A DNA stretch of 64,000 nt from Bdellovibrio bacteriovorus str. Tiberius. Its GTDB lineage: Bacteria; Bdellovibrionota; Bdellovibrionia; Bdellovibrionales; Bdellovibrionaceae. This document shows, piece after piece, positions 20,345 through 55,588 of this stretch. The position numbers were made by a program, and so were the translations under genes. Location: positions 682,001 to 746,000 of the forward strand of contig NC_019567.1 in NCBI RefSeq assembly GCF_000317895.1. Reading direction: 5' to 3'. The notes below the pieces were generated by a model. The model did not search any database. It had not been told where the DNA came from and was given only the letters and a program-made list of their open reading frames with translations. Numbering within the stretch: position 1 is the first letter of the stretch; each line of letters begins with the position of its first letter.

Positions 20345-20596
20345 ATGTTTTGGGTTGTGACTTTAACAATGTCAGTTCTGATGTTTTCTGCCAGTGGATG
20401 TTCGCTGGAGGCCAACATCAGTGACTTGAACCAGCAGGTGCTGCCGGCGCCCGCAGCTGTCCGTCACGACAAAGACTATCAAAATACAGAATTGGCCGTA
20501 TCAGGCCATTATCAAGTTCAAGGTCAAATTGCAGAAACAACGGAAAGACGGAATAGCGGGAACTACGTTGTAGAAGGAGTTATCGCTTATGAATAG
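20345..20596 (+). CDS. Small lipoprotein encoded ahead of the giant fibre
   Basis: A protein of 83 residues from ATG 20345 (GGAGTCAGGG just upstream). A lipoprotein signal peptide ends at the lipobox-like FSASGC. The mature part has two similar segments, ELAVSGHYQVQGQIAE and RNSGNYVVEGVIAYE, suggesting short beta repeats. An upstream in-frame ATG at 20312 is less likely because it would add a polar stretch before the signal. Its last 8 bases overlap the fibre start, so the two are translationally coupled; it may anchor or help export the fibre. Confidence 0.7.
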   Translation: MFWVVTLTMSVLMFSASGCSLEANISDLNQQVLPAPAAVRHDKDYQNTELAVSGHYQVQGQIAETTERRNSGNYVVEGVIAYE

Positions 20597-23500
20597 ATCC
20601 AAAATTCTGATTTTGAATCTGTTGTTGTTTTCGTCCGTGGCTTTGGCACAAACCAATGGCAACAAAGGGATCACCTTTCAGGGGGTGATCAAGGACAACT
20701 CCAATCCCTCCAGTCCCGCGTTTCCCACTGTGACCTCCAATGTGGTGGTGCAGATCCTGGGTGTTCGCAGCGATGGCAATTCCTGCATTCTGTGGGAAGA
20801 AATGCACTCGGGTGTGCAAATTGAAAAGGGTTATCTTTATCTTGTCGTCGGGCGCGGGAGTAAAACCGCTCAGCCGACTTTAAGCTTTAAAGACGTCTTT
20901 AACGACAAGCCTAAAACCAGTCTGACGTGTTCAAATGGATTTACCGATTACACGCCGCTGGCGACTGACAGTCGCAAACTGCGCGTCGTGGTCAGCAGCC
21001 TGGGTATCACTGCTGACTTTAATATGCGGTCGGCTCCGTTGGCTGTGCATTCTGAAACTGCAGGAAGTGCGGAAGCTCTGAATGGCAAAGCCAGTGCCGA
21101 CTTTATTAACGTGAATACGCCAAGCGGGTTGACTCAAGCAGCAGCAGAGTCCTGGTTTGGCAGCACCATGATGGCCGATATTCTGGCGGGGACTTACGTG
21201 GCCCCCACGGCAACCACCGCCGGCAATGTGACCGGGGTTGTGGCTGTGGGTAACGGTGGAACCGGGGCCAGCACCGCCGCGGGTGCTCGGACAAACCTGG
21301 GCCTGGGACCTTTGGCAGTGATGAATCCCACAGGGACGGCGGATGCCACCACGTATCTTCGTGGAGACGGCACTTGGGCCGGGTTGCCATCAGCGCCGAC
21401 TCTGGCGGGTGACGTCAGTGGGTCCGTGGGCGCAAACACCGTTGATAAGATCAAAGGCACGGCGGTGAATACAACGGCTTTGGCTGACGGCCACTTCCTG
21501 CGCTTTGAGAGCGGAGCCTGGATCAACGGCGCCTTGGTGGCGGCGGATGTCCCGGCTTTGGATTGGGCCAAGATCACCACGGGGAAACCTACGAACTTGG
21601 CAGGGTACGGGATCACTGATGCCGTCAGTAAAAACGGCGACACCATGGCCGGCGCCTTGAACATGGGTTCTAACGACGTGACTGCAACAGGCTATGTTTT
21701 GATGAGCCCGCAGCGCGCGTTGGGTTTGGGAACATACACGAATGCGCAAGAAGCCACTTTGACAGGCGGACTTTCAGCCGCTCACAAAGGTTACACTTGG
21801 TACAACAGTGAAGCTCATCAGGTGAAATTCTGGAATGGAACGACTGTGCAGGCTTTGGGTGTTGCAGGTTCCGGGATCACCAGCATTGGTGGTCAGACGG
21901 GTGGTGCGCAAGCGTTTGCGACCGGCACCGTGGGCACGGCTCCTGCCTGGTCTTCGGGTTCTGACACTCACACTTTGAATATTCCTATGGCCGCGACGGG
22001 TTCGGTGACGGCGGGTTTACTGAGCAACGCCGACTATGCGGCTTTCGCGGCGAAGCTGGGAACAGCGACCAACTTTGGCGGCGATGTCACCGGGACTTAT
22101 AACGCCATCACTCTGAATACGGTGCCGATTGCCAAAGGTGGTACGGGACAAACCACAGCGACAGCGGCCTTCGGTGCGTTGTCTCCGTTAACCACCAAAG
22201 GGGATGTGCTTGTGCATGATGGAACGGCCAACCTGCGTATGGCGGTGGGTTCCGACGGCAAGGCGTTGATCGCCGACAGCGCCGAAGCTGCCGGAGTTAA
22301 ATGGGGCGACATTTTCGCCACCGATTTGCTTTCTATGGTGACCACGGGAATCGTTCAGCGTAATGGGGCGGGATCTTATTCTGCGGTGACGGTGAATGGG
22401 CCGTTGACTTATTCCTCCGGAGCTTTGGGTGTGAACGTCGGCACGGGCGCTGGCAGCGTGGCTGCGGGGGATGATGCCCGCATCACAGGTGCTTTGCAGC
22501 GCAGTGGTGGCACCATGACTGGCGTCCTGGGTTTGGGAACTTACTCCAATGCGCAGGAAGCCACTTTGGTGGGGACTTTGAATGCGACCCACAAAGGTTA
22601 TGCCTGGTTTAACAGTGACGCCAATCAAGTGAAAATCTGGAATGGGTCAGCGGCCCAAGCGCTGGGCATTGCCGGTTCCGGTATCACTTCCTTTGGCGGG
22701 CAATCGGGGAATTCGCAGTCCTTGGCCATTGGTGCGACCGGCACCTCGCCAGCGTGGAGTTCGGCTTCAGACACGCACACCTTGAATATCCCGATGGCTT
22801 CTGCCGCGAGTGTGACCGCGGGTCTTTTAAGCAAAACAGACTACGATGCCTTTGCAGCAAAGCAGGCCGCAGGAAATTACGTGACCGCGTTGACCGGGGA
22901 TGTGACGGCGGCGGGACCTGGTTCTGCGGCGGCAACAATCGCCGCAGACGCGGTGACTTCGGCGAAGATCGCCAATGGCACTATAGTTGGTGCGGATATG
23001 GACTTTACCGGAGTCAACACGGCGACGACTTCGTTTGCAATGAAAGACGGCACCGGCAAGTTCTTTAATTTCGCGTGCGCGACGACTGGCCACGTTCCAA
23101 CGTGGACCGTGGCGGGCTTTGTCTGTCAGGCGGCGGCTTCGGGGGACTTTAAAGCAGATGGCACGGTGAACATGACGGGGCCGTTAAAGGCCGTGGTCGG
23201 CTCGGCGGCAGCTCCAGGCTACACTTTTGTTGGAGACACCAACACGGGCATGTTCGGTGCGGCGGCGGATGCTCTAGGATTTTCCACTGCCGGTGTTGAG
23301 AGGATGAGGCTTGATGGCTCCGGGATGACGGTGCAGGGGCCCAGTTCGTTTCTTGTTGTTAAAGATACAGTTTCGGGTGGGGACACTGAAAGCGGTCTTT
23401 TCATTGAGGGTGATGGGGCCACTGGAGGACTGACAGCTTTGTCTGATGGGTATAGCAATCATCCGGCATGGGCCGATTCATTGATGCTGTATTCTGATAC

Positions 23501-26468
23501 AGTCAATTCTGGTGGTTTAAGACTTCATGCTAACGCCGGAAATATCACCTTAAGTAATGGCTGGTCGCCCAATGTAGACCGGATGGTGCTTTTGCCTTCT
23601 GGAAATGTCGGTATCGGCACCTTAACTCCGGGTTCTGCCTTGGAAGTGAAAGGTGAGATCAGAACATCAGGAACAACCTCCGGCTATACGGGCTTTAGAG
23701 CTCCCGCATCCGGAAATAATATCACTTATACTCTTCCCAGCGCTGACGGCACCAATAACCAGGTTTTGACCACCAATGGTTCCGGCACGCTGTCGTGGAC
23801 CAGCCCCGCAGCTGGCGGAATCACGTCCCTGGGCGGATTGACAGCAGGGACACAGACTTTTGCGATCGGCACCAGTGGAAATGCGCCGGCATTTAGTTCA
23901 GCGACCAGCACACACACATTGAATATTCCAATGGCTTCTACGGCATCGGTGACCGCGGGGCTTATTTCCAAAACAGATTATGACTCTTTCGCTGCAAAGC
24001 AGGCTGCAGGAAATTATGTGACAGCCCTGACCGGTGACGTCACGGCCACAGGTCCCGGGTCAGTAGCAGCGACAATTGCGGCAAATGCGGTGACGTCGGC
24101 CAAGATTGCCAATGGCACGATTGTCGGCGCGGATCTGGATTTCACGGGAGTGAACACCGCAACGACTTCGTTTGCCATGAAAGACAGCACTGGCAAGTTC
24201 TACAACTTCGCCTGTGCGACCACGAGCCATGTTCCGACTTGGACAGCAACTGGCTTTGTCTGCCAGGCGCCTGGGGCGAATATCACTTCAGGAAATGTGA
24301 CGACGGCCTTGGGGTACACTCCGGTGAATGACGCTGGAGACACTATGACCGGGGATTTGACCTTTGATGCGACCAAAGGGATTTACTTCAAAGACTCATC
24401 GGGGCCAGAGAAAGTATATTTAAAAGCACCGACGGCTTTGGCCGCCAGTTACAATCTGACCTGGCCAGCGGCGGTGCCGACAGCGGGGCAATCCCTGCAG
24501 TCCGATGCTTCGGGGAATTTAAGCTGGTACACGCCCAGTGCTGGTGCGGGCGATTTCAAAGCTGACGGTACAGTGAATATGACCGGCACCTTGAAAGCGG
24601 TTGCGGGAACCGCCGCGGCTCCGGGTTACGCTCTGGTTGGTGACACCAACACCGGTATGTTCGGTGCGGCGGCCGACACGCTTGGTTTAGCTACGGCGGG
24701 TGTTGAAAGAATGAGGCTCGGTGCTACTGGGATGACCGTTTCGGGGACTTCCGATGACAACGTAAGCCTGAGTGTTGAAAGCCCGGATAACTTTTCCGGA
24801 TATTCCACCAAGATGCAGATCACAGACTATGGTGGCGCGGGGGCCGTGGGGCTGTGGATTCAAAATGCGGGTGGCACCAAAGCTTCTCCGACAGCAACAA
24901 CGGCAGGAACGATCATCGGAAGACTTTGGTATTCGGGATATGCTACTGGCTTCCGGCCGGCGGCGGGTATCAACGTCACTGCCCATCAGAATTTCACAGC
25001 AACCAATACGCCGACGAACATGCTTTTCTATACGGGCCCGGTGGGAAGTTCCACGGCCTTGGAGCGCATGAGAATTGACTACGCTGGTAACGTCGGTATC
25101 GGCACGGTAGCTCCGGGCTCCGCGTTGGATGTGAAAGGCGAAATCAGAACATCAGGAGCAACTTCTGGTTATTCAGGATTCAGGGCACCGGCTTCCGGGA
25201 ACAACATCACTTACACTTTGCCCGGAGCAGATGGCAGTGCCAATCAGGTTCTGACGACGAATGGATCAGGCACACTTTCGTGGACGACTCCCGCGGCAGG
25301 AGGCATCACTTCACTGGGTGGTTTGACTGCGGCAACGCAGACATTTGCAATTGGTACTGCGGGAACAGCCCCGGCCTTCAGTTCGGCCACCAGCACGCAT
25401 ACTTTGAATATTCCGATGGCGTCGACAGCCACCGTGACAGCGGGTCTGATCAGTAAAACGGACTATGACAACTTCAATGGCAAGTTTGCTGCCACTGTAA
25501 CCTCGCCCTTGGCAGGTCAACATATTCGTTACAATGGCTCAACCTGGGTGAACGCACTGGTGGCTTTGTCGTCAGATGTGACGGGGACTTTGTCCATTGC
25601 CAACGGCGGTACCGGCGCTACCAGCGCGGGATCGGCCCGGACAAGTTTGGGCATCGGATCTGCCGGTACAAGAGACACGGGGGCAGTTTCTGGAAATGTG
25701 CCGCTGGTGGGGGTCTCAGGGATCACGGCGAACAAGATGTGTACTTCGGATGGGACCAGTTCGATCATTTGTAACACGAACATTCCCACCAGCCAGTGGG
25801 GAGTCTCGGGTTCCGACATCTACTATAACGCGGGCAAGGTGGCCATCGGCACCACAGTTGCGGATCGCAATTTGACCGTAACGAACAACTCTTCGGGGCA
25901 GGGGCCGATCAGCGTTCAGAACAATAGCGGCAGCGGAGTAAGCTCAGTCGAGTTCTTTAATAGCAGTGGTGGGCCGGAAGGTTTCGTGGGCTGGGGGAAC
26001 AGCAGTGCCAGCGGTGTTTCCAATACTGTTGTTCTTGGATCTAATGGAGTAAGACAAGTGGCTTTGTTTACCAATAACACCAAAGTTCTTACGGCTTATT
26101 CTTCGGGGAATGTCGGAATTGGCGTGGCTGGTGATCCGGACGTAAAACTGAAGGTCAATGGAACGATCGCTTCGGCTCAGGTGAATGACTTAAGCCCGAT
26201 GAGCTTCGATCTTTCACTCGGAAATTTCCAGCACACTTCGACGGGCTGTTCTGGAACTTCGTGGGATCTGGTGAACATGGCGGAAGGTGCGACGTACACC
26301 ATCGCCGTACAAAATAACACACACACGGGTGCCTGCAGTTTCACGAATTCAGGTTCGACGTTCCGTTACCAGCCCGCCAATGCCACACCGGGTGTGGGGC
26401 ATGTGATCTATTCCTTTATGAAGGTGGGAACAGTTGTCTATGTTTCGTGGGTTGAAGGCTTTAACTAA
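20589..26468 (+). CDS. Giant repetitive fibre/adhesin-like protein (1959 aa)
   Basis: It has a Sec signal peptide (MNRSKILILNLLLFSSVALA) and then a globular N-domain (GITFQGVIKDNSNPSSPAFP, with cysteines), common to Bdellovibrio fibre-like proteins. About 1700 residues of collagen- and phage-fibre-like repeats follow, with GNVGIGT motifs and paired blocks such as THTLNIPMA and DFKADGTVNMTG. The C-terminus is not an S74 chaperone but a small domain with two cysteines (STGCSGTSWDLVNMAEG ... ACSFTNSGSTF). The architecture matches mosaic adhesive trimeric (MAT) fibres proposed to recognise prey. It is coupled to a lipoprotein upstream and an NHL-propeller gene downstream. The assignment is by architecture; ligand and location are unknown. 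Confidence 0.85.
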   Translation: MNRSKILILNLLLFSSVALAQTNGNKGITFQGVIKDNSNPSSPAFPTVTSNVVVQILGVRSDGNSCILWEEMHSGVQIEKGYLYLVVGRGSKTAQPTLSFKDVFNDKPKTSLTCSNGFTDYTPLATDSRKLRVVVSSLGITADFNMRSAPLAVHSETAGSAEALNGKASADFINVNTPSGLTQAAAESWFGSTMMADILAGTYVAPTATTAGNVTGVVAVGNGGTGASTAAGARTNLGLGPLAVMNPTGTADATTYLRGDGTWAGLPSAPTLAGDVSGSVGANTVDKIKGTAVNTTALADGHFLRFESGAWINGALVAADVPALDWAKITTGKPTNLAGYGITDAVSKNGDTMAGALNMGSNDVTATGYVLMSPQRALGLGTYTNAQEATLTGGLSAAHKGYTWYNSEAHQVKFWNGTTVQALGVAGSGITSIGGQTGGAQAFATGTVGTAPAWSSGSDTHTLNIPMAATGSVTAGLLSNADYAAFAAKLGTATNFGGDVTGTYNAITLNTVPIAKGGTGQTTATAAFGALSPLTTKGDVLVHDGTANLRMAVGSDGKALIADSAEAAGVKWGDIFATDLLSMVTTGIVQRNGAGSYSAVTVNGPLTYSSGALGVNVGTGAGSVAAGDDARITGALQRSGGTMTGVLGLGTYSNAQEATLVGTLNATHKGYAWFNSDANQVKIWNGSAAQALGIAGSGITSFGGQSGNSQSLAIGATGTSPAWSSASDTHTLNIPMASAASVTAGLLSKTDYDAFAAKQAAGNYVTALTGDVTAAGPGSAAATIAADAVTSAKIANGTIVGADMDFTGVNTATTSFAMKDGTGKFFNFACATTGHVPTWTVAGFVCQAAASGDFKADGTVNMTGPLKAVVGSAAAPGYTFVGDTNTGMFGAAADALGFSTAGVERMRLDGSGMTVQGPSSFLVVKDTVSGGDTESGLFIEGDGATGGLTALSDGYSNHPAWADSLMLYSDTVNSGGLRLHANAGNITLSNGWSPNVDRMVLLPSGNVGIGTLTPGSALEVKGEIRTSGTTSGYTGFRAPASGNNITYTLPSADGTNNQVLTTNGSGTLSWTSPAAGGITSLGGLTAGTQTFAIGTSGNAPAFSSATSTHTLNIPMASTASVTAGLISKTDYDSFAAKQAAGNYVTALTGDVTATGPGSVAATIAANAVTSAKIANGTIVGADLDFTGVNTATTSFAMKDSTGKFYNFACATTSHVPTWTATGFVCQAPGANITSGNVTTALGYTPVNDAGDTMTGDLTFDATKGIYFKDSSGPEKVYLKAPTALAASYNLTWPAAVPTAGQSLQSDASGNLSWYTPSAGAGDFKADGTVNMTGTLKAVAGTAAAPGYALVGDTNTGMFGAAADTLGLATAGVERMRLGATGMTVSGTSDDNVSLSVESPDNFSGYSTKMQITDYGGAGAVGLWIQNAGGTKASPTATTAGTIIGRLWYSGYATGFRPAAGINVTAHQNFTATNTPTNMLFYTGPVGSSTALERMRIDYAGNVGIGTVAPGSALDVKGEIRTSGATSGYSGFRAPASGNNITYTLPGADGSANQVLTTNGSGTLSWTTPAAGGITSLGGLTAATQTFAIGTAGTAPAFSSATSTHTLNIPMASTATVTAGLISKTDYDNFNGKFAATVTSPLAGQHIRYNGSTWVNALVALSSDVTGTLSIANGGTGATSAGSARTSLGIGSAGTRDTGAVSGNVPLVGVSGITANKMCTSDGTSSIICNTNIPTSQWGVSGSDIYYNAGKVAIGTTVADRNLTVTNNSSGQGPISVQNNSGSGVSSVEFFNSSGGPEGFVGWGNSSASGVSNTVVLGSNGVRQVALFTNNTKVLTAYSSGNVGIGVAGDPDVKLKVNGTIASAQVNDLSPMSFDLSLGNFQHTSTGCSGTSWDLVNMAEGATYTIAVQNNTHTGACSFTNSGSTFRYQPANATPGVGHVIYSFMKVGTVVYVSWVEGFN
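21864..25485 (+). repeat. Internal duplications within the giant fibre gene
   Basis: A module of about 190 bp encoding GSGITSxGG ... THTLNIPMA ... SVTAGL occurs four times: 21864-22055, 22671-22862, 23811-23999 and 25296-25485. Copies two and three continue in parallel for about 460 bp in all (22671-23131 and 23811-24268), sharing YVTALTGDVTA and NTATTSFAMKD. A DFKADGTVNM block repeats near 23140 and 24550, and a GSALxVKGEIRTSG block near 23630 and 25120. The pattern suggests growth of the fibre by tandem duplication. Confidence 0.8.
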
Positions 26469-44577: not shown

Positions 44578-44655
44578 ATGGCTCTTCTGGGAAAAAAATT
44601 CAGAACGTTAACCGAATTTAGACAGAAACGAGTCAAAGTATGGAGAGAGATCTAA
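44578..44655 (+). CDS. Short leader ORF overlapping the sigma-factor start (25 aa)
   Basis: An ATG at 44578 has a strong GGGGGAG ribosome site 4 bases upstream (44567-44573). The frame runs 25 codons, is basic (MALLGKKF ... KVWREI), and ends at 44655, 16 bases inside the sigma-factor gene. The sigma gene ATG at 44640 itself has no good ribosome site, so ribosomes finishing the leader could reinitiate there (translational coupling). The peptide may have no function of its own. Confidence 0.45.
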   Translation: MALLGKKFRTLTEFRQKRVKVWREI

Positions 44656-45260
44656 ACGTAACGGATCTTGAACTGGTAGAAAAAGTAAAGTCTGGCGACA
44701 GACGCTCTTTTTCCGAACTCGTGAAACGACATCAGAGAAGTGTGCTGCGTATGAGTTTGCGGTTCGTAAAGGACATGGACACAGCTGAGGACGTGACGCA
44801 AGAAGCGTTCATCAAGGCTTACGAAAAGCTGAACACCTTCGAAGGTCGTTCTTCTTTCAAAAGCTGGTTGTTCCAGATCGCAGTGAACACCGCACGCAAC
44901 AAACTTCGTGAGTGGAAACGTGACACCGTGGATATCGACGATGTGCAATTGGCTGTAGATGCGGAGGCCGAAACTACACTCGTCCATACGGCGGTTTCTG
45001 ACATACTTAAAAATGAAGTAGAGAAGCTGCCGTTCAAGCAGAAAACAGCCCTGGTTCTTCGTGTGTACGAGGATCTGAGCTTTAACGAAATCGCTGATAT
45101 CATGGAATGCCCATACGATACGGCGAAGGCGAACTACAGACATGCTCTGATGAAACTTCGTCAGACATTCGAACAGCAGGCTGAATTGAAAAACTGGACG
45201 GAAGAAGTAGGTGGCTTCTTCCTCGAGGTTAACCAAAGATTTGCGGAAGCAGAAGGATAA
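44640..45260 (+). CDS. ECF (RpoE-like) sigma factor
   Basis: A protein of 206 residues. Sigma region 2 contains FSELVKRHQRSVLRMSLRFVKDMDTAEDV and the -10 recognition helix TQEAFIKAYEKLNTF ... FKSWLFQIAVNTARN; region 4 ends LSFNEIADIMECPYDTAKANYRHALMKLR, a helix-turn-helix for the -35 box. The long tail past region 4 (about 30 residues, ELKNWTEEVGGFFLEVNQRF) is extra. An in-frame stop lies 18 bases upstream of the ATG at 44640. HD100 encodes RpoE-like sigma factors, one of which I recall is adjacent to dgcB, consistent with this gene. It is followed after 6 bases by a one-TM protein. Confidence 0.92.
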   Translation: MERDLNVTDLELVEKVKSGDRRSFSELVKRHQRSVLRMSLRFVKDMDTAEDVTQEAFIKAYEKLNTFEGRSSFKSWLFQIAVNTARNKLREWKRDTVDIDDVQLAVDAEAETTLVHTAVSDILKNEVEKLPFKQKTALVLRVYEDLSFNEIADIMECPYDTAKANYRHALMKLRQTFEQQAELKNWTEEVGGFFLEVNQRFAEAEG

Positions 45261-45770: not shown

Positions 45771-46256
45771 GTGTTGCTGAAGACTCTGTTCCCAATATTC
45801 CTAATATGTCTAAATTCGGCTTTCTCCGTGGCTGTGGCTGCGGAGAAACGCAATCAGCTTGAAGAGCTTCTGATCTGGAAGATGAGTGATGAGCTAAAGC
45901 TGAATACCACTGACGAAAAGAAATTCACTGAAATCGTCCGGGACATCAATAAACGCAAAGCCCAGTTCAACCTGGAGCTGCAGGCTTCCGTCGATAAAAT
46001 GAACAAAGCCACCACGGCAAAATCCAAGGATGAAGAGCTGACCCGCTATCGCAAGTCTTTGCAAAGCTATGGTCGAATGAATGAAGAGGAGTTCGACAAG
46101 CTAAAGCCTCTTTTGGGGCCTGAGCGCATGGTGCAGTACCTGATGATCAAGCAGGATCTGACCAACAGGATTAAAACGATGCTGGCTAATCCCGAAGTGG
46201 CCCCGGGTAAAACGGCCAAGCCTTTGCCTTCTCCGAAACTGATCGAAGAAAAATAA
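45771..46256 (+). CDS. Periplasmic Spy/CpxP-like helical protein
   Basis: A protein of 161 residues, start GTG 45771. A signal peptide (MLLKTLFPIFLICLNSAFSVAVAA) is followed by a helical body: LLIWKMSDELKLNTTDEKKFTEIVRDINKRKAQF resembles the LTxxQ-type helices of Spy, CpxP and ZraP. These sense or buffer envelope stress. Downstream of a sigma factor and one-TM protein, the order recalls CnrYXH-type systems, in which a periplasmic sensor controls the anti-sigma factor. The C-terminal tail is Lys/Pro-rich and likely disordered. The homology is only by pattern; I am moderately sure. Confidence 0.65.
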   Translation: MLLKTLFPIFLICLNSAFSVAVAAEKRNQLEELLIWKMSDELKLNTTDEKKFTEIVRDINKRKAQFNLELQASVDKMNKATTAKSKDEELTRYRKSLQSYGRMNEEEFDKLKPLLGPERMVQYLMIKQDLTNRIKTMLANPEVAPGKTAKPLPSPKLIEEK

Positions 46257-46286
46257 AAAAAAGCCGTCATGAAGACGGCTTTTTTC
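46256..46286. terminator. Bidirectional terminator between the sigma module and the secreted-protein operon
   Basis: AAGCCGTC / GACGGCTT around ATGAA, with A-run on the left and T-run on the right. It serves the rightward Spy-like gene and the leftward gene ending at 46289. Confidence 0.9.
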
Positions 46287-46288
46287 GT

Positions 46289-46690
46289 TTAGAAGATCTC
46301 CCAGCCGGAGATGACGTCAACTCCAGAATCACAGGGCTGAAACTGATAAGGACAATGAATCAGCGCCTTGAAGCGCTCGTCATTGCCGTCGTCAAAGACA
46401 AACACCCCTTGAGATGTGCCATCGTTGGCCCGGTACATACCCTTGACGGCAGCATAGCGGCCTTTGGAATCACGGGCGATGATAGAGTTCGGGCACTGAT
46501 CCAGATTGTACTGTTCAATTTTGAAGTCATAGCTTTCAAACTGAGAAACCTGGTTGCGGGCCAGAGTGGTGATACGACCATCCTGGATCTGCAGCGGCTG
46601 CAGGATCTTGTAGTTGTTCACATTGTCACGGGATTGGGCCGGTCCATAAACCACACAAGCCATAACCAAAGCACTTGTCACTAGCGACAT
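46289..46690 (-). CDS. Secreted protein of unknown function (133 aa), operon end
   Basis: A protein of 133 residues with a signal peptide (MSLVTSALVMACVVYGPAQS). The mature part is mostly beta-like, with cysteines at DQCPNS, IHCPYQFQPCDSG. I recognise no domain. Its start overlaps the upstream gene's stop by 10 bases, the tightest coupling in this run, so it is surely cotranslated. It is the last gene of the eight-gene leftward cluster. Confidence 0.7.
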   Translation of the reverse strand: MSLVTSALVMACVVYGPAQSRDNVNNYKILQPLQIQDGRITTLARNQVSQFESYDFKIEQYNLDQCPNSIIARDSKGRYAAVKGMYRANDGTSQGVFVFDDGNDERFKALIHCPYQFQPCDSGVDVISGWEIF

Positions 46691-47877
46691 TGTTGACCTC
46701 CATAGCGGGATGATTCGCCCCAGCGAACAGCCGGGCTCCAGCGGGCATCAGCGACCAGATGGCCGTCGATCATCTTTAAAAACAAATCCCAGGCGTTGTT
46801 GGCGGCAAAGCCTGTCATCACATGACAGCTCATCAGAACCTCTTTGGCGTCCTTGATGTCGCCAATGGCGTCCGGCACGTCATAGTTGTTCTTGCGCCAG
46901 TACATCAGATCGTTCAATTGCCCATAAGCTTCGCGCAGGCGGGCATCGCGGCGGTTGGTGGAATGTTCATCCAGAAGCCCCGCTGATGGGCAGCGTCCAC
47001 CGGCATCACGCACGGCCTTCCATGCGGCATTCACCGCGTCCACGCGGCCCTGCCACAGGTTGCAGATGCTTTCCACGACCACGTCAATACGCTCGTCAAT
47101 TGTCGGAGGTCTAAGGCGCAGTTCTTTTCTGATGCCTTCATGCCATTGATAGATTTGCTTGCGGGTGGGACGACCATAAGATGTCCATCCCGCCATTTCA
47201 AACTGCTGGTTGTTCGCAGCCGGTGACACCGCGGTTTTCCAGATACGGAATCCCCCCAGACGGCTGATGGGCCAGGTGTAAGGATTACGGGTGGTGATCA
47301 GTTCGCGCACTTTGGAAGGTGTCGTGGAATACAGCGAGCGAATGAAACCATTTTCGTTCACATCGATGATCATTTCGGTATGTCCACCACGGGTGCCGAC
47401 GATGTTTTCTTCTTCAGGTGTCAGGGTCGGATTCAGAAAGATTGTGCCAGGACGAACGAATTCACGTTGGATCGCTACCGGAATTGTATCATGTCCCAGC
47501 GTTTGAGTGCTGGTCAGGTCCGACACAAGCTGGATGAATTTGCGAACGCGGTCTTTTTCCGCCAGGCGATCCCAGTTGGTCATGGATTGGGTCAGGCTGC
47601 GCTTCATGTTTTCGATGTTTGTGAAGGCCACCGGTAAAGAGTTTTCGTAAGCAAAGATGATCCTTGCCGCATAGACCGCGTCAGCGCAGTCGGTGGAAAT
47701 ACCGTACCAGGGATTCTGGGGATTCGAAAAAATATCCGCCTTGAAGCTTTCAACCACCCACTGGGAATAGCGGTCTTCCTGAGCCTGAGACCACACGTTC
47801 TGGGCATTCCAGACCGCAGCTTCGGCCATCAGTCCGGTTGACATGATCAAAGTAAAAATCAGAGTCTTCACGCTCAC
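46681..47877 (-). CDS. Secreted papain-like (NlpC/P60-like) cysteine peptidase-like protein
   Basis: A protein of 398 residues with a signal peptide (MSVKTLIFTLIMSTGLMAEA). GISTDCADAVYAARIIFAYE has the Cys on a helix like the DCSGF nucleophile of NlpC/P60, and GTRGGHTEMIIDVNENG places a His on the next expected strand, about 110 residues later. ELITTRNPYTWPISRLGGFRIW continues the beta core. A C-terminal half of about 170 residues is helical with a few cysteines. If active it would cut peptidoglycan peptides. The assignment is inferred from motif order and is not certain. Confidence 0.62.
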   Translation of the reverse strand: MSVKTLIFTLIMSTGLMAEAAVWNAQNVWSQAQEDRYSQWVVESFKADIFSNPQNPWYGISTDCADAVYAARIIFAYENSLPVAFTNIENMKRSLTQSMTNWDRLAEKDRVRKFIQLVSDLTSTQTLGHDTIPVAIQREFVRPGTIFLNPTLTPEEENIVGTRGGHTEMIIDVNENGFIRSLYSTTPSKVRELITTRNPYTWPISRLGGFRIWKTAVSPAANNQQFEMAGWTSYGRPTRKQIYQWHEGIRKELRLRPPTIDERIDVVVESICNLWQGRVDAVNAAWKAVRDAGGRCPSAGLLDEHSTNRRDARLREAYGQLNDLMYWRKNNYDVPDAIGDIKDAKEVLMSCHVMTGFAANNAWDLFLKMIDGHLVADARWSPAVRWGESSRYGGQQCR

Positions 47878-47879
47878 AC

Positions 47880-48713
47880 CTAGAATATATCGACGGACAG
47901 TTCGATTTCATTATCCGTCAAAACATTGGAACGCGCAGCTGCAGAGGCCTCTTTGAATTCAAAAACAATTTCGCAGAACTTCGGAACACGCTGGGGCCAG
48001 TTGGCGTTAAGCACCATCACATTGTCCCGGAAAGTGCCGTCAAACGCCGCCCAGTTCGTGGTGTAAGAATAGTCCACCTGCATGCTGTCGCCGGGGCTGA
48101 TCTGATTTTCCTGGCGGGTGTCCGTGCGGCCCGAGCGTAAATCACAGGACGTCGTCACGCGATAGTACAGGCTGGCTGCCGTGGTATAGGTGTTGGCAGA
48201 GTTTCGCACGTTGGCCGCCAAAGAATAAATTCTTTCGCTGAAGTCTTCTTCCACGGTATTCCCGTTACCAACACCGTTGCCGTTGTTGCCATTGTTTTTG
48301 CAGTTGCCATAGCCATGACCACCGCCATTGCCGTTGTTGCCTTTGCACTGAGCCAGCGGTCCCAGGTAACAGACGTGAACTTTGTAACCCACACCCATGG
48401 TTTCATAGGAAAAAGACATATTCAGCCGGGTGATACGGGACAACCACTGATTGCCAAAAGAAAACAGCTTGTCAGAGTCCTCATTCAACGCCAGTCCCAC
48501 ACTGCGGTTGCGCCACGGTGAAGTCACCGGAGAGCTCAGGTCCTCATAGTTCACGCTGCCCGAGAACGACCCCGGAGAGGGGGCCAATGGTGAAGCTGTG
48601 CGGGTCAGGTTGCAGACGAAAATATCCTCCGAGCTGGATGAAACTGTGACATCCACCTGGGCAAAAGCGGGGCCGGAAAAAACAGCAAGCAGGGTGATAA
48701 GAAGTGCTTTCAT
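47880..48713 (-). CDS. Secreted protein with Gly/Asn-rich loop, paralogue of 50321-51352
   Basis: A protein of 277 residues with a signal peptide (MKALLITLLAVFSGPAFA). Mature parts: ITRLNMSFSYETMGVGYKVHVCYLGPL, then a low-complexity Gly/Asn insert (GNNGNGGGHGYGNCKNNGNN), then RIYSLAANVRNSANTY ... RVTTSCDL ... VPKFCEIVFEFKEAS. The same order (VDICYRGPQ, FSLLAQVS, VCDLQG, PRFCRVRYVFKE) occurs in the gene two positions upstream, so the two are distant paralogues. It starts 2 bases after the upstream gene's stop. Function unknown. Confidence 0.72.
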   Translation of the reverse strand: MKALLITLLAVFSGPAFAQVDVTVSSSSEDIFVCNLTRTASPLAPSPGSFSGSVNYEDLSSPVTSPWRNRSVGLALNEDSDKLFSFGNQWLSRITRLNMSFSYETMGVGYKVHVCYLGPLAQCKGNNGNGGGHGYGNCKNNGNNGNGVGNGNTVEEDFSERIYSLAANVRNSANTYTTAASLYYRVTTSCDLRSGRTDTRQENQISPGDSMQVDYSYTTNWAAFDGTFRDNVMVLNANWPQRVPKFCEIVFEFKEASAAARSNVLTDNEIELSVDIF

Positions 48714-48715
48714 TC

Positions 48716-50287
48716 TTACGGCTCACATCTGTAGCGAGGCAGGGTTTTCACCTGCTTGTTCATTACCACGCCTGCCGGGGATTCTTTGATCACGCGGATA
48801 TCATTCAGGTCGAAGTTGCCGCCATTACCCACGTCACCCACGGTGAATTCAGCAGAGAAGCGGTTCCAGAATTTTTGTTTTCCGGAAAGATAGCACTGAC
48901 CATGGCTTGGGTCGCAAAGGCGCTCATAGTAAGTCGGCCACAGGCGGGTGGAGCCCAGTTTCTTGAAATAGCTTAGTGACATGTCCAGATCTGAATTCAG
49001 GTCGCCGGAAGAAATATGCGGCAAGCCCGTCAAACGTGGCAGGCCCAGCAGGTCAGACAATGGCTGAATGGACTGGATTTGATCCAAGCCTGCAACGCCA
49101 TTGGCTGCTTTCAGATCGATCAGGAACTGTTCGGCTCTGTTCAGATAGATATAGAAATCTTCAAACGGGTCGATCATGGTGACGACGACTTTGTAGCGTT
49201 CGCCTTTCACAAAGTTCAAGCCATCGATGCTTTGTTGCGGGAAGCGCATCAGACCCTGCCAGTTCCCCTGAATGGTGCCACCGCTGGTCCAGCCGTCGAT
49301 GAATACTGATTTTTGCGAGCCGACTTTAAAGACTTCAACTTCGGCGGCCACCGGGATGTTATAAGCAGACGGTGCCGTGCAAAGTCCCGCCTGGTTGCAG
49401 AACAAGGGCTGTCGGTTGTCCACAGAAAGATACATGTTCAAATCAACGCGTTCCTCGCCGGCTTGGCGGAACTGAAGGTCACCCATGTTGAATTCTGCAT
49501 TGTAAGTGGTCGGGAAGCGGGGTGCTTCCAGGCCGACGTCTTCACTCAACTCCATCATTCCGGCCGGGGCTTGCAGCGTGAAGCGGTAGCGGGAAGAACC
49601 AATGGCCGTCACATCAGGGCTAAGGCCAGAATCATCACCTGCAACATAAGAATTCAAAGCGGCTTCGATGTCACCGAACTCAAGTCCCAGTTCTTTCATT
49701 TTTTCCGGGGTTGCGCACTCAGGCTTCAATCCCATGGTGATAGAAAGATTGTAGCTTGGGTTGATGGTCAGGAAGCAGTATTCGCCTTCCATCTGAACCA
49801 TGCTTGCACCCTGCGGGGTGGTTTTGCAGTATTCCTGGTTGGATTTGTAGCGCAGAGGGCGACCGTTGACTTCAGCCACCGTCACAAACGCGCATTGCTG
49901 CAGGAATTTGTGCTGTCTTTTAACCAGAGATTTCTTTTGATTGTGATCCATCGGCTTGCTGAAAATCGGATTTTCAATTTTGCAGATGTTTTCATCCGGT
50001 AGGTCACCATCAAGGGAAATATCAGCCACGTCAGAAACATCACTCGGCATATAGACGCCCTTGGAAAGCATCAGGAAGCTGCCGGCACTTTCGGTGCACT
50101 TGTCGATCATTTGCGGAAGAATTGTGGACCCTTCACCATCGCCATAGATACGGATCGGTGGAGCGGATTCAAAATTGATCGCGAAGTTGTGTTTCATATC
50201 GCGAGAAGCGCGGCAGGCGAAAGCTTCGCCTGCCAGCATAAATACAACCCCTGAAAGGACCAGAACCGTAAGATTTTTGAATTTCAT
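48716..50287 (-). CDS. Large secreted beta-rich protein (523 aa) of unknown function
   Basis: A protein of 523 residues with a signal peptide (MKFKNLTVLVLSGVVFMLAGEAFA). The mature N-terminus starts with Cys (CRASRDMKHNF), but the residues before it (EAFA) are a poor lipobox, so it is probably soluble. Around twelve cysteines are spread along the chain and there are many predicted beta strands (RYRFTLQAPAG, DLNMYLSVDNRQPLFC). C-terminal CDPSHGQCYLSGKQKFW and the final LPRYRCEP carry Cys pairs. I recognise no family. It starts 33 bases downstream of the 343-residue gene. Confidence 0.7.
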   Translation of the reverse strand: MKFKNLTVLVLSGVVFMLAGEAFACRASRDMKHNFAINFESAPPIRIYGDGEGSTILPQMIDKCTESAGSFLMLSKGVYMPSDVSDVADISLDGDLPDENICKIENPIFSKPMDHNQKKSLVKRQHKFLQQCAFVTVAEVNGRPLRYKSNQEYCKTTPQGASMVQMEGEYCFLTINPSYNLSITMGLKPECATPEKMKELGLEFGDIEAALNSYVAGDDSGLSPDVTAIGSSRYRFTLQAPAGMMELSEDVGLEAPRFPTTYNAEFNMGDLQFRQAGEERVDLNMYLSVDNRQPLFCNQAGLCTAPSAYNIPVAAEVEVFKVGSQKSVFIDGWTSGGTIQGNWQGLMRFPQQSIDGLNFVKGERYKVVVTMIDPFEDFYIYLNRAEQFLIDLKAANGVAGLDQIQSIQPLSDLLGLPRLTGLPHISSGDLNSDLDMSLSYFKKLGSTRLWPTYYERLCDPSHGQCYLSGKQKFWNRFSAEFTVGDVGNGGNFDLNDIRVIKESPAGVVMNKQVKTLPRYRCEP

Positions 50288-50320
50288 AGATCGATCCTTT
50301 CAGAGACCAAAGAGGGGCGA

Positions 50321-51352
50321 TTAGTTCGCAGCGCCTTCTTCAATTTTAGTGTAAGTACACATTTCAGCACCGTGACGTTGCCATTTTCTCAAGTTTTTGA
50401 TGGCAGCAGCATGGTTTGTCTCTTTGAACACATAACGTACACGGCAGAAGCGTGGAGTTTTTGTGTTTTGGTTGATCCATGTGTTGTAAAGGTCTTTAGC
50501 CGCGCCAACAGAAGTAGCTTGGTTAGTACCAGTGAAGAAGTCACCACCACCGTTTTGTGGAGCATTCCAGTCAGAGAATTTCGCTTCGTTATCCAGCATG
50601 TTGTACTGGTTAGCGTTGTTGCGAGCGTATTTGAATGTGTTCATACCTTGAAGGTCGCACACAGTGTAAGACTCAACAGTCAAGCCAGACAAAGTCGTGT
50701 ACTTGATGTTTGGAGTCATGTTCAAACCATCACGACCGTGGTTGAAACCTGGACCGTCTGGGTTGTTGTCGCCTGGGTTCACGCCAGTAGCAACGAAGTC
50801 AGTTGCAGAAACTTGAGCCAACAAGCTGAAGTTAGCAACTACGTTGTCTTCCCAGTATTCAATCTGAGGGCCACGGTAGCAGATATCAACGAAGTATTCA
50901 GCGCCGTAAAGCTCGGAACCAAGGTTGAAGCTAAGTTCTTTGATACGGTTAGCGAAAGCGTCTTCGTGGTTAACCAAAGTTGCGAAAGAACCCTGACCAG
51001 CTTGACGAGTCGTCGCTGTCCAGTTTGTGTTCCATTTGGAATCACCAGTGTTCCAAGAGCTGTATTGACCTTTCATGTAGTCCATCAGGTACTCACCACC
51101 GTTGTCGTTAGTACAAACGCAACGAGTGTGGCAGGTAGCATCAGTACAAGTACCAGCAGTACAAGCGATCTGAGTGTCTTCGAAGTAGCACGCTTTGTGA
51201 GCGGATGCATTGTGCTTCAAACCAGCATTACAAGCGTAGATGTCTGGACCAGAGCTGAAGGTTTTGAATTTGAAACGCAAAGAAATTGCGTTCGCGCTTT
51301 GTGCAGAGATCAATAGCATAGCTACTGCTGCAAATTTCATCAAGTTAGTCAT
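50321..51352 (-). CDS. Secreted Cys-rich protein (343 aa), likely highly expressed
   Basis: A protein of 343 residues with a signal peptide (MTNLMKFAAVAMLLISAQSANA). A dense Cys segment lies near residues 38-82 (NACNAG... FEDTQIACTAGTCTDATC then HTRCVCTNDNGGEY), suggesting a disulfide-locked knot. The C-terminal two thirds match its paralogue at 47880-48713. The ribosome site is very strong (AAAAGGAGAAAACA before the ATG), and codons are strongly biased to GTT/GAA/AAC/ACC forms, unlike the other genes in the cluster, indicating high expression. It may be the major subunit of a structure made by this operon; that is inference. Confidence 0.75.
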   Translation of the reverse strand: MTNLMKFAAVAMLLISAQSANAISLRFKFKTFSSGPDIYACNAGLKHNASAHKACYFEDTQIACTAGTCTDATCHTRCVCTNDNGGEYLMDYMKGQYSSWNTGDSKWNTNWTATTRQAGQGSFATLVNHEDAFANRIKELSFNLGSELYGAEYFVDICYRGPQIEYWEDNVVANFSLLAQVSATDFVATGVNPGDNNPDGPGFNHGRDGLNMTPNIKYTTLSGLTVESYTVCDLQGMNTFKYARNNANQYNMLDNEAKFSDWNAPQNGGGDFFTGTNQATSVGAAKDLYNTWINQNTKTPRFCRVRYVFKETNHAAAIKNLRKWQRHGAEMCTYTKIEEGAAN

Positions 51353-51383
51353 TGTTTTCTCCTTTTGATCTAACGTTCTGTTT

Positions 51384-51974
51384 TTAAGGTTTACTGTTCA
51401 CTTTAATTTCGTTGTTCGTTCCGGTTTCCACTTGAGGGTTGTACTCTAAAACGTACATTCCCTGGTTGTATTGGCCGGTCCCTTCGCAAACTATGAATTT
51501 GATCCGGGAAGGTTCCTGAAACTTGTTCTTTTCCAGGACGATCAGTGGTTGGCCGGTTCCTGTCGGGCAAAGCCCCTGGAATCTGGCGATCACTTCCTGA
51601 TTGTCGATGGCGGAATAGAAGTTATAGATGCTTTTGGCTGCCACAAAGATGTGATCCTTTGTGAACACCTTGGCCACTTCCGCAGCAGGCAACACACGCT
51701 GGCTGTTGCGGTACAGACGGTCGATCTCTGTGAATACGGTGCGCAGGATCGGATTGGTCGTGCCCAGGCAGTTGAAGCAAAGCTCCTGCTCTTTCCAGCA
51801 GGAATTCTGGGACTTGCACACTTCCTGGCACAGAGTTTCGTCAGGACGGCAGTAAAGCGTCACAGTGTCCTGGAACTCACCACGCGGGCCGGTGCCCACA
51901 GCGGACTCTACAGACCAGGCCATAGCTGTTTGTACGTTCAGCAAAAGGGTCAGGGACAACAAAATGGATTTCAT
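51384..51974 (-). CDS. Small secreted Cys-rich protein (196 aa)
   Basis: A protein of 196 residues with a signal peptide (MKSILLSLTLLLNVQTAMA). A Cys cluster directly follows it: LYCRPDETLCQEVCKSQNSC and ELCFNCLG, with seven cysteines in about 35 residues. Then a helical stretch (VFTEIDRLYRNSQRV) and a C-terminal beta part (RIKFIVCEGTGQYNQGMYVL). No known family. Its start overlaps the 898-residue gene's stop by one base (TAATG at 51974), so the two are translationally coupled. Confidence 0.7.
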   Translation of the reverse strand: MKSILLSLTLLLNVQTAMAWSVESAVGTGPRGEFQDTVTLYCRPDETLCQEVCKSQNSCWKEQELCFNCLGTTNPILRTVFTEIDRLYRNSQRVLPAAEVAKVFTKDHIFVAAKSIYNFYSAIDNQEVIARFQGLCPTGTGQPLIVLEKNKFQEPSRIKFIVCEGTGQYNQGMYVLEYNPQVETGTNNEIKVNSKP

Positions 51975-54670
51975 TATTTCCCCATCGCTCTTCTGCAGGA
52001 TTTGTGGAATCCGTACATGGAATGTGTTCTGAAGTTTTCAACTCTGCGTTCGTTGCAGGTGAAGCGAATGACCGCTTCACCTTTGCACAGATCAGATTTG
52101 ATCCACGCTTCTTTTGTGTCGGACGGTGGCCATTGGCTGTCGTCGTCTTCGCGGATGTAAACTTCGTGAACCTTGGTGTTGTAGGCCTTTTCGAAGACAT
52201 CAGCAGCTTTCGCGGCACAGCTGTCTCTGAAACATTTCAAACCTTTGCTCAGCTGATCCACACAGTGGGTCGGGATCTGTCCGTACTTTTTGTAAACTTC
52301 AGCCGCGTAAGCTGCGTTCACTTCCCAGGATTTCGGGATATTTACTTTGTCTTTTTTTGCCGAGAAATACTTCTGGAAGGTGCGGAACAGGTACACAACA
52401 AATTTCGCCGGATTCACAACGCCGAACGTGGAAGTGGAGGCGGCAGCCACCGCAGTGAAGTTCAGGGTGCAACCACCGCAGAAAGAACGGGCGGTTTTCG
52501 CACCGGTCGCGAAGTCACTTGGATTGTTGGAAACAACTTCGTTGGACTGTTTGGAATCACAGTAATTCACTGTCAAACCAGAGAAAGAATAGAAGTTGTA
52601 GTTCTTGATACCGTTGCTATTCAGGGAAACCGCGCACGGCGCACCCAGCAAAGGACCGAAATCCGCCACCAGGGATGTTTGCATTTTGGATTTTTCAACA
52701 CGCGGGTCGAACTTGATTTTGCCCTCTTTCACCAGTTGGTTGAAAGAAGCCACTTTCGGAGCGGTGAAGTTCACATCCACATAGATCGGCAGGATATTCC
52801 AGCCGAACAATGCCGTATTCGCCAGGTCCACCATCAGCACTTTGTTCATGCGCTGGGTTTGGAACCAGGGATCGTACATTTTGCAGGTTTTAAGTTCAGA
52901 GTAAGGATTGAACAGGTTTGGATCTGACGTTTTGCCCGCCAGGGGAACCAAAGCGTCCGCATAGGTGGAAACCGCATAAAGGTCCACCATGCTTTTCACC
53001 ATCAGACGGGTGCAATCCACAGAGCTGTAGCAGATCGCCTGTGCGCCGGAAACGGATTGATTGTTCCAGGACAGAAGTGCCTGGTTGTTGAAAGCTGTCG
53101 GGATGAATTTCGCTTCTTCAGGATTGGCCTGAAGCTGCATCATTTCTTTCGCCCATGGTGCGAAGCCGGACTTGTTCACGGTGTAACCGGATTTGTTCCA
53201 GTAATTTTGTTTTTCAAGTTCGTTACAGAATGGCAGCACCTGGGAAGAAACCGCTTTGAAGAAGTTCACGTGCTCTTGCAGTGAGCGACGGTCAGAATAC
53301 TGCATCTGAGTCATATTCTTCAGCTGGGCGATGCGCTCGATGTCCGTTTTCAGGAAGTCCAGAGTTTCGTCACCGGCCAGGCGGATCTCGGTACACATAT
53401 AGTAAAGTTCGTTCATCATGGCTTCGTTGCCACGGTGAGCGCTGATGTCTTTGGAAACCACAGTGCTCAACACCGCTGAACCCAGTTGATCCTGCAGCAG
53501 GTTCAGATTGGTGATCGCGGCCTGATACTTGGTTTTCATCAGGGCGCGGGACTGGATCACGTTTTTGCGGAAATTCGCCAGCCATTCCTGAGCACTGTCG
53601 AAGGACTGAGTCCCCAGGAAGTCATTGTTGACGCCACGAACGCCTTTTTCCAGCATTTCCGCGTCAGTGCCGCCGGGAACGGTGTCGAAGTGTTCTGGTG
53701 TCGGGCCGCTGATTTTAGCCAGCTCTCGGATGCTGTTGGCAGAAAGGTATTCACTGTCACAGGAAGGTTTAGTCATGGACTTGCAACCGTTCGGAGTGAA
53801 CATGATGGATTCTTCAAGAGCGATAGAGCGGAAGATACGGCCGAAGTTAGGGCTTAGCTGTTCAACTTCGTTGGTGTGTCTCCACGCCCAGGACAGATAG
53901 ATTTTCAGACTGTTCCAGAAATCGAAGCCTTGCTGAGCCAAAGAGTTTGCATTGGTTTCCCAGTCAATTTGCAAAGTCACGAAACGGTTGTTCAGGCTGT
54001 CATCGGCATTAAAGCAGCCGGTCAGATAGTCCGCTTCGTTCAGGTAAGCCAGGGCGATGTCCTGCAGGTTGGCTTGGTTGACTTCCGGGTTTTGCAGGTG
54101 TCCCTGCAGAGCCGAGAATTTTTTGATGTAATAGCAGCCCAGGCGGTCTTTGGAAGAATGCAGAGGGAAGTTTGCTTGAGTGAAACGGTCAAAGGCCAGC
54201 AGATCAGCGCGTTTTCCGGCGCGGGCCCAGATTTGGGAAAGATAATCGTTCAGCTCGGAGCAGTTACCACCACTGGCTTCACAGCTGTGGTTGGCCTGCA
54301 GATACTTCGGTAGGTCTGCAGTTTTCAGATTCATAGGCAGCACCGGAAGCTGCCCACGGATCATTTTGTTCATGATGTTCAGGGTCATGTAGGCCACAGA
54401 AAGACGGAATTCCTTCATGGCCTTGTTGCTGTATTCTTCCGTGTTCAGGCCGCGCAGTTTGGCGACGGAGTTCGCGGTTTTACCGGCATTGTAACCATCA
54501 ATCATGATCATGATGGAAGATGTCGGCTTTTCAGAATCCAGCGCGCACTGAGCGCGGTTGGTGAACTTCAGAGGACTCAGGAGACTTGTCTGATGCGCAG
54601 GCACCTCTGCACGGCTTAGCGCTGGCAGGGTGAGGGCAATCAGTAAAGTGACCAAAGTGATTTTATTCAT
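51974..54670 (-). CDS. Large secreted protein (898 aa) of unknown function
   Basis: A protein of 898 residues with a signal peptide (MNKITLVTLLIALTLPALSRA). It is mostly alpha-helical in the first 500 residues (for example LANFRKNVIQSRALMKTKYQAAITN), then mixed. More than 20 cysteines are present, with CVDQLSKGLKCFRDSCAAK and GGCTLNF near the C-terminus. No enzymatic motif or membrane segment is seen. It is the largest member of the run and the second gene from the promoter side, 28 bases after the first. It could be the scaffold of a periplasmic or surface complex. Confidence 0.7.
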   Translation of the reverse strand: MNKITLVTLLIALTLPALSRAEVPAHQTSLLSPLKFTNRAQCALDSEKPTSSIMIMIDGYNAGKTANSVAKLRGLNTEEYSNKAMKEFRLSVAYMTLNIMNKMIRGQLPVLPMNLKTADLPKYLQANHSCEASGGNCSELNDYLSQIWARAGKRADLLAFDRFTQANFPLHSSKDRLGCYYIKKFSALQGHLQNPEVNQANLQDIALAYLNEADYLTGCFNADDSLNNRFVTLQIDWETNANSLAQQGFDFWNSLKIYLSWAWRHTNEVEQLSPNFGRIFRSIALEESIMFTPNGCKSMTKPSCDSEYLSANSIRELAKISGPTPEHFDTVPGGTDAEMLEKGVRGVNNDFLGTQSFDSAQEWLANFRKNVIQSRALMKTKYQAAITNLNLLQDQLGSAVLSTVVSKDISAHRGNEAMMNELYYMCTEIRLAGDETLDFLKTDIERIAQLKNMTQMQYSDRRSLQEHVNFFKAVSSQVLPFCNELEKQNYWNKSGYTVNKSGFAPWAKEMMQLQANPEEAKFIPTAFNNQALLSWNNQSVSGAQAICYSSVDCTRLMVKSMVDLYAVSTYADALVPLAGKTSDPNLFNPYSELKTCKMYDPWFQTQRMNKVLMVDLANTALFGWNILPIYVDVNFTAPKVASFNQLVKEGKIKFDPRVEKSKMQTSLVADFGPLLGAPCAVSLNSNGIKNYNFYSFSGLTVNYCDSKQSNEVVSNNPSDFATGAKTARSFCGGCTLNFTAVAAASTSTFGVVNPAKFVVYLFRTFQKYFSAKKDKVNIPKSWEVNAAYAAEVYKKYGQIPTHCVDQLSKGLKCFRDSCAAKAADVFEKAYNTKVHEVYIREDDDSQWPPSDTKEAWIKSDLCKGEAVIRFTCNERRVENFRTHSMYGFHKSCRRAMGK

Positions 54671-54698
54671 GAGTCCTCTTGAGTTTCGTTGACCGGAT

Positions 54699-55232
54699 TT
54701 AGTTCAGTGCTTTGCAGTTATCGACTTTGTTCAGCATCGTTGTGTAGAACAGAATCACAGTTTGGTCTGCAGGGGAGAAGTTACGCTTCGTGGAACCGTC
54801 CGCGTTCACCATGTTGTACATGTATGTGTTCACGAAACGATAAACAGAAGGAGTCACACGCAGAGTGGAGTTACAAGAGTAGTTTTTGTAAGTCACAGTG
54901 ATGCCTGCGTAGTAGTCGCCACCGTTGTTGTTGCGGGAGCCACTGTCACCGATGTAGAAGTTGTTGCCGCCGCTGTTTGGGTTGTCGCCGTAACCAACCT
55001 GGAAGCTTACTGTCCAGCCTTCGCCGTGACCGTCAGTGCCTACGATAGAGCAAAGGTTGCCTCTGCAAGCCACGGCCATTTCGTTTTCGATCTTTCTTTG
55101 GATCTCTGCCTCTGTGTAGTGTGGATTTGGACGAGGATCATAGTCAGGGCTGCCACCATCGAATTCGTCAGCGTGGACAGTCAGGGACATTGCCAGTGCT
55201 ACAAGGGCAGCACTAAGGAACTTCAATTTCAT
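54699..55232 (-). CDS. First gene of the secreted-protein operon (177 aa)
   Basis: A protein of 177 residues with a signal peptide (MKLKFLSAALVALAMSLTVHA), preceded by a strong GGAGAG site. The mature N-terminus is acidic and Pro/Asp-rich (DEFDGGSPDYDPRPNPHY), then a beta-rich domain with Gly/Asn loops (YGDNPNSGGNNFYIGDSGSR) and four cysteines. The codons are of the highly expressed type. It is upstream of the 898-residue gene. No family recognised. Confidence 0.75.
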   Translation of the reverse strand: MKLKFLSAALVALAMSLTVHADEFDGGSPDYDPRPNPHYTEAEIQRKIENEMAVACRGNLCSIVGTDGHGEGWTVSFQVGYGDNPNSGGNNFYIGDSGSRNNNGGDYYAGITVTYKNYSCNSTLRVTPSVYRFVNTYMYNMVNADGSTKRNFSPADQTVILFYTTMLNKVDNCKALN

Positions 55233-55588
55233 GTTCTCTCCGGTTTTTGTGGCTTGTCAGGGTTCAGTTACGTTCGGTTGTTTCCTGACAGCATTTTTTT
55301 TGAGTGGCCGAGTTTTAATCGTGTTTTTTTGATTTCGCCAGCGCAGACACGCTGCGCATGTAAAGAATTCTTCAATGATTTCAAATAGTAACATCACCCG
55401 AATGGGTTATGCTTTAGTTGAGTGATTTCGCATTGTTAGCTTCTTAACAGCGCTCCACTGCTTCCTAAACTGAATTTTGACCGTGGTTTTACGTGTTTAG
55501 CGGGACATTACAAAATCGGCATGAATTTTCGCTGAATTTTGCGTAAACAGAACAATGTGGAACAGGCCTGTTTTTGGGGGGGTAACCC
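55233..55588. other. Promoter region of the secreted-protein operon
   Basis: 356 bases between the HExxH lipoprotein gene end and the first operon gene, both leftward. It must hold the operon promoter but no consensus hexamers are clear. It contains a dyad GCGCAG-ACACG-CTGCGC (55341-55357) and a 12-bp perfect palindrome AACAGGCCTGTT (55561-55572) just after the lipoprotein stop. No gene is supported. Confidence 0.5.

Follow-up and report, generated by a model that had tools for sequence, protein, structure and literature searches.

Type V pili are matured by proteases, and F-type conjugation secretion includes a run of Sec-exported, cysteine-rich proteins (TraN, TraU, TraW, and TraH). A large part of the Bdellovibrio gene set for predation consists of hypothetical proteins to which no hypotheses are attached. 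DUF4846 (PF16138) is classed as papain-like and has been proposed to modify the cell wall (PMC10318531). We analyzed a run of eight leftward genes within a 64,000-nucleotide stretch of the Bdellovibrio bacteriovorus str. Tiberius genome (the window), which an initial annotation had proposed to encode one undescribed, disulfide-stabilized secreted system of eight genes. The idea of a single system was supported by phylum-wide co-occurrence, retained clustering, gain and loss as a block at one site, and cysteine parity. Its true unit is smaller, however: a five-family core of genes 1, 2, 3, 4 (with its paralog gene 6), and 5, to which genes 6, 7, and 8 are optional additions.

Layout and export signals of the locus

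All eight open reading frames were confirmed in the window sequence (Table 1), and the recomputed intergenic gaps (28, −1, 31, 33, 2, 2, and −10) matched those given before. Each gene has a dN/dS of 0.02–0.11 against the two nearest genomes, and all eight are thus real, maintained genes under purifying selection. No FliA-type (attack-phase) promoter, with the consensus taken from PMC3627812, was found upstream of the operon, and an Rfam search gave no match. The sigma-factor gene at 44640–45260 is most likely bd0743 (PMC3464611), which would place the operon at roughly bd0747–bd0756; the tags Bd0746–Bd0757, inferred from Bd0743, are not mentioned in the main texts of the literature searched. 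Elsewhere in the window (20589–26468) lies the gene for an exported protein of 1959 aa that may be a fibre or an adhesin.

Table 1. Features of the operon and its borders, in window coordinates
Feature	Coordinates	Strand	Description
Upstream region	55233..55588	−	Expected location of the operon promoter; blocks conserved among relatives
Gene 1 (core)	54699..55232	−	177 aa, signal peptide, 4 Cys
Gene 2 (core, signature protein)	51974..54670	−	898 aa, signal peptide, 22 Cys
Gene 3 (core)	51384..51974	−	196 aa, signal peptide, 8 invariant Cys
Gene 4 (core)	50321..51352	−	343 aa, signal peptide, 11 Cys (odd)
Codon of gene 4 Cys332 (motif GAEMCTYT)	50357..50359	−	Predicted unpaired; predicted inter-subunit disulfide
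Gene 5 (core)	48716..50287	−	523 aa, signal peptide, 12 Cys
Gene 6	47880..48713	−	277 aa, divergent gene 4 paralog without the C-terminal Cys; Gly/Asn-rich insert
Gene 7 (accessory)	46681..47877	−	398 aa, predicted papain-like hydrolase; Cys64 and His166 invariant
Codon of gene 7 predicted catalytic Cys64 (DCAD motif)	47686..47688	−	
Gene 8 (accessory)	46289..46690	−	133 aa, weak signal peptide; found in close relatives only
Intrinsic terminator	46256..46286	−	Strong; 13-pair stem and T-run (46286–46256) immediately past the gene 8 stop; closes the operon

Sec signal peptides had been assigned to all eight proteins. They are clear in genes 1–7, where basic and hydrophobic N-terminal segments end in A-x-A-like sites, and the orthologs have N-termini of the same type. 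The signal of gene 8 is weak: its N-terminus is hydrophobic, the basic n-region is absent, and it fails a crude signal-peptide rule. A sequence scan found no lipobox in genes 1–8, and genes 1–7 contain no second hydrophobic stretch that scores as a membrane helix, both in agreement with the initial annotation. Because a loose signal-peptide rule was also positive for 23 of the 54 window genes, uniform export alone is suggestive and not decisive; conservation is.

Conservation of a five-family core

We searched other Bdellovibrionota for the same gene order by running profiles of genes 1–7 against loci that surround gene 2 relatives throughout the phylum. The core was clustered in 38 of 39 untruncated loci (drawn from families f1, f4, f7, f12, f22, f26, and f29), where gene families 1, 2, 3, and 5 share a single cluster with one or more members of the gene 4/6 family; the one exception (L040, genome G010) is a lone extra gene 2 (L040:9150–11918). 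Most Bdellovibrionales loci follow the order 1-2-3-4-5-6(-7), and those of family f12 are typically arranged 4-5-(6)-1-2-3. Some clusters are divergently split, the flanking genes vary, and no conserved neighbours outside the core were found across the loci examined. Relatives of gene 8 were found only in close kin. In a cluster lineage represented by L055, L063, L065, and L077, the module includes a gene for a trypsin-like protease, gene 3 is enlarged, and the copies of the gene 4/6 type have diverged or are split; the L063 and L065 clusters adjoin cytochrome-like CxxCH genes.

Of 369 genomes of the phylum, 75 have gene 2, 74 have gene 5, and 71 have gene 4. Genes 2 and 5 occurred together in 72 genomes and apart in 5 (Fisher p 3e-70, ignoring relatedness). 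In both genomes with gene 5 and without gene 2, gene 5 lies on a short contig (L092 and L093), and one of the three genomes positive for gene 2 and negative for gene 5 carries a divergent gene 5 (L051). The major clades are common to the gene 2 and gene 5 trees (r 0.78). Within the genus Bdellovibrio, the set is patchy (17 of 24 genomes), and genes 2, 4, and 5 agree there.

The genes flanking the module, a 161-aa gene and an aminopeptidase gene, occur in every one of the 24 genus members. The distance between them is about 9.3 kb in G000, G004, G007, and G010, with the module at the site, and 0.01–2.0 kb in most other members, with short unrelated genes between them. Beyond these four, the members checked do not have the block at this site, and several of them carry the module elsewhere. 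Since the block is missing at an otherwise matching site in some Bdellovibrio, its presence or absence is directly testable. Putative short lipoprotein genes were seen at the module-less site in Bdellovibrio genomes (L104:1432–2178 and L105:1246–2034). In strain kdesi (G010), gene 2 belongs to the window lineage (support 100/100), and for gene 7 the window lineage was rejected (AU p 0.001); replacement of gene 5 by recombination in this strain was not significant (AU p 0.36).

At 3.02 Mb, the window genome contains another, divergent cluster, which holds families 1–6 and lacks family 7. Directly upstream of this copy (L037:11519–14440, in G000 near 3.03 Mb) is the gene for a 973-aa exported collagen-like protein with Gly-X-Y repeats. 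Within the order, 31 of 141 genomes have its C-terminal domain, mostly at places away from the module, and we rejected the protein as a member of the system, as it adjoins the module in only four genomes.

Sequence novelty, cysteines, and the gene 7 product

The initial annotation had recognized none of the families, and Pfam, NCBIfam, PHROGs, and PADLOC indeed gave no match above cut-off for the eight window proteins; no PADLOC model for anti-phage defence matched. When family members of genes 1–5 were scanned singly, only isolated, chance-like matches appeared. PDB profile searches yielded no convincing match, those of gene 3 to a PAS domain covering 26 residues and being judged chance, and the viral, plasmid, and phage collections held no relatives of the proteins tried. 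In short, well-characterized homologues for most members, which would have spoken against an undescribed system, were not found in Pfam, NCBIfam, PHROGs, PADLOC, or PDB profiles. By HHalign, genes 4 and 6 are paralogs (100%, E 3e-45), and no further pair of the proteins is convincingly related. Beyond the phylum, the search consisted of one collection-wide scan that reaches close relatives only, and the novelty of the module is established at the sequence level only. The invariant residues of genes 1–5 are chiefly Cys, Gly, Pro, and Trp and include no recognizable catalytic set.

AlphaFold inputs were shallow (7 alignment rows for gene 4 and 3 for gene 7), and the resulting models (pLDDT 45–47) were too poor for use, probably because the alignments held too few sequences. 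Foldseek with these low-confidence models returned no match at E ≤ 0.001. The gene 4 model, at this low confidence, is all-beta. This would fit a surface fibre or pilus built from beta-rich gene 4 and gene 6 subunits, with gene 5 as adaptor and gene 2 as base or tip, the subunits being matured by gene 7 or, in other lineages, by a trypsin-like protease. Gene 4 is duplicated in many clusters, a trypsin-like protease gene (Trypsin_2) lies inside four variant clusters, and the collagen-like protein precedes the second cluster of the window genome, all of which favor a fibre. However, the cluster has no usher, lipoprotein anchor, or chaperone, the model confidence is too low for a fold call, and the collagen-like gene is a neighbor in too few genomes (four), so that we regard a fibre or pilus as unlikely.

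The mature proteins of window genes 1–8 contain 4, 22, 8, 11, 12, 6, 5, and 3 cysteines. Even counts prevail among relatives of gene 1 (40/43), gene 2 (44/44), gene 3 (42/43), gene 5 (37/40), and gene 6 (19/22), as expected for closed disulfides, although parity itself is no proof of them. The gene 4 count is odd in 35 of 44 relatives, including nearly all complete orthologs, which have 11, 13, 15, or 19 cysteines. This odd parity is explained by a single C-terminal residue, Cys332. Of 33 strong gene 4 relatives, 32 have it; the only one without it (L076) has 10 cysteines, an even number, and gene 6 mostly lacks it as well. With the other core proteins even, the simplest reading is that Cys332 links gene 4 to gene 4, and this we infer from parity and conservation. 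The high disulfide content indicated by the cysteine counts, together with strong purifying selection, would also suit a periplasmic or outer-surface coat or matrix that shields the predator, for instance from its own hydrolases or those of prey, and has no direct part in prey attack. The patchy distribution in the genus fits such a condition-specific trait; even so, we consider a purely protective coat quite improbable.

Gene 7 is predicted to be an optional, accessory papain-like hydrolase. Cys64 (DCAD) and His166 (GGHxE) are invariant in 14 gene 7 relatives and are present in paralogs too, and the gene 7 cysteine count is odd in 15 of 16 because of the invariant, catalytic-type Cys64. In the low-confidence model (pLDDT 45–47), Cys64 lies at the start of a helix and His166 at the start of a strand; with placement taken from that model, gene 7 resembles DUF4846 and NlpC/P60-type proteins in having a Cys at a helix head and a His before a strand. 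Matches to DUF4846 were found in 3 of the 14 relatives in the same register, all below threshold (best 20.1 bits, in a relative, against a Pfam gathering cut-off of 37), and window gene 7 itself is unmatched. The GD motif of strand 1 (PMC10318531) is not present in gene 7, which has PGT (residues 143–145) at the corresponding place. The family is multi-copy, with seven matches in G000, and many module-less genomes also carry members, which makes gene 7 accessory to the core. Its expansion is seen across Bdellovibrionales, with several copies per genome (L078, L079, and L080 in G000; L081–L084), and versions of about 1000 aa occur in other genera.

The predicted hydrolase residues of gene 7 could also belong to a cocktail of separate secreted effectors that are freed individually into the periplasm of prey and share no more than a transcript. 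All core proteins carry Sec signals and no anchors, as such effectors would, and Bdellovibrio releases many hydrolases into prey (PMC11003981). However, the five families are almost always found together and are gained or lost as one block, the core proteins show no catalytic-looking invariant residues, and gene 4 retains a predicted unpaired cysteine. We think independent effectors improbable.

Interpretation and comparison with described systems

We favor, with a probability of about 0.5, a secreted, disulfide-locked structural assembly specific to Bdellovibrionota, in which gene 4 is the cross-linking subunit and gene 7 an accessory hydrolase. Gene content, co-inheritance, block behaviour, cysteine parity, and sequence novelty are the observations on which this reading is built. 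According to it, Sec would export the five disulfide-rich structural families (genes 1–5), which would most likely build one oxidized, protease-resistant complex outside the cytoplasm. Gene 4 would make inter-subunit disulfides through its unpaired C-terminal Cys332, most simply with another gene 4, and gene 6 would serve as a non-crosslinking gene 4 paralog or as a cap. The papain-like gene 7 product may trim peptidoglycan or subunits. From the observed basis, we infer that the proteins assemble physically and are crosslinked, that gene 7 is active, and that the module has a role at the predator–prey or predator-surface interface. A search for an anchor or outer-membrane export protein among the module-encoded genes found none that would take the assembly out of the periplasm, which counts against it.

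More tentatively, the module may be a new extracellular machine of predatory Bdellovibrionota, made of five families without known relatives, linked covalently via the C-terminal Cys of gene 4 and employed at the envelope of the prey while the predator attacks it or grows in it; we see this as possible, though doubtful. If the module does act on prey, it would represent a new kind of bacterial contact machinery. In either case, it offers a genetic unit with clear limits and a single residue as the foremost target.

The structural assembly we favor shares features with several described systems. Like chaperone-usher and type V pili, the module has secreted subunits with paralogs, beta-rich according to the low-confidence model, and a protease in some clusters. 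However, the cluster has no Pfam match to an usher or a PapD-like chaperone, and module proteins have no sequence match to pilus families. Type V pilus subunits are lipoproteins, whereas genes 1–8 have no lipobox. The likeness to DUF4846 is limited to the accessory gene 7, with scores below cut-off and PGT instead of GD. The run of Sec-exported, cysteine-rich proteins is shared with F-type secretion, from which the module differs in lacking any Tra-family match (Pfam, NCBIfam) as well as a coupling ATPase and a membrane channel. MAT fibres and MIDAS adhesins, to whose fibre or VWA domains the module has no Pfam match and whose descriptions make no mention of tags Bd074x or Bd075x, are likewise secreted or surface proteins of Bdellovibrio (PMC10769870, PMC11003981).
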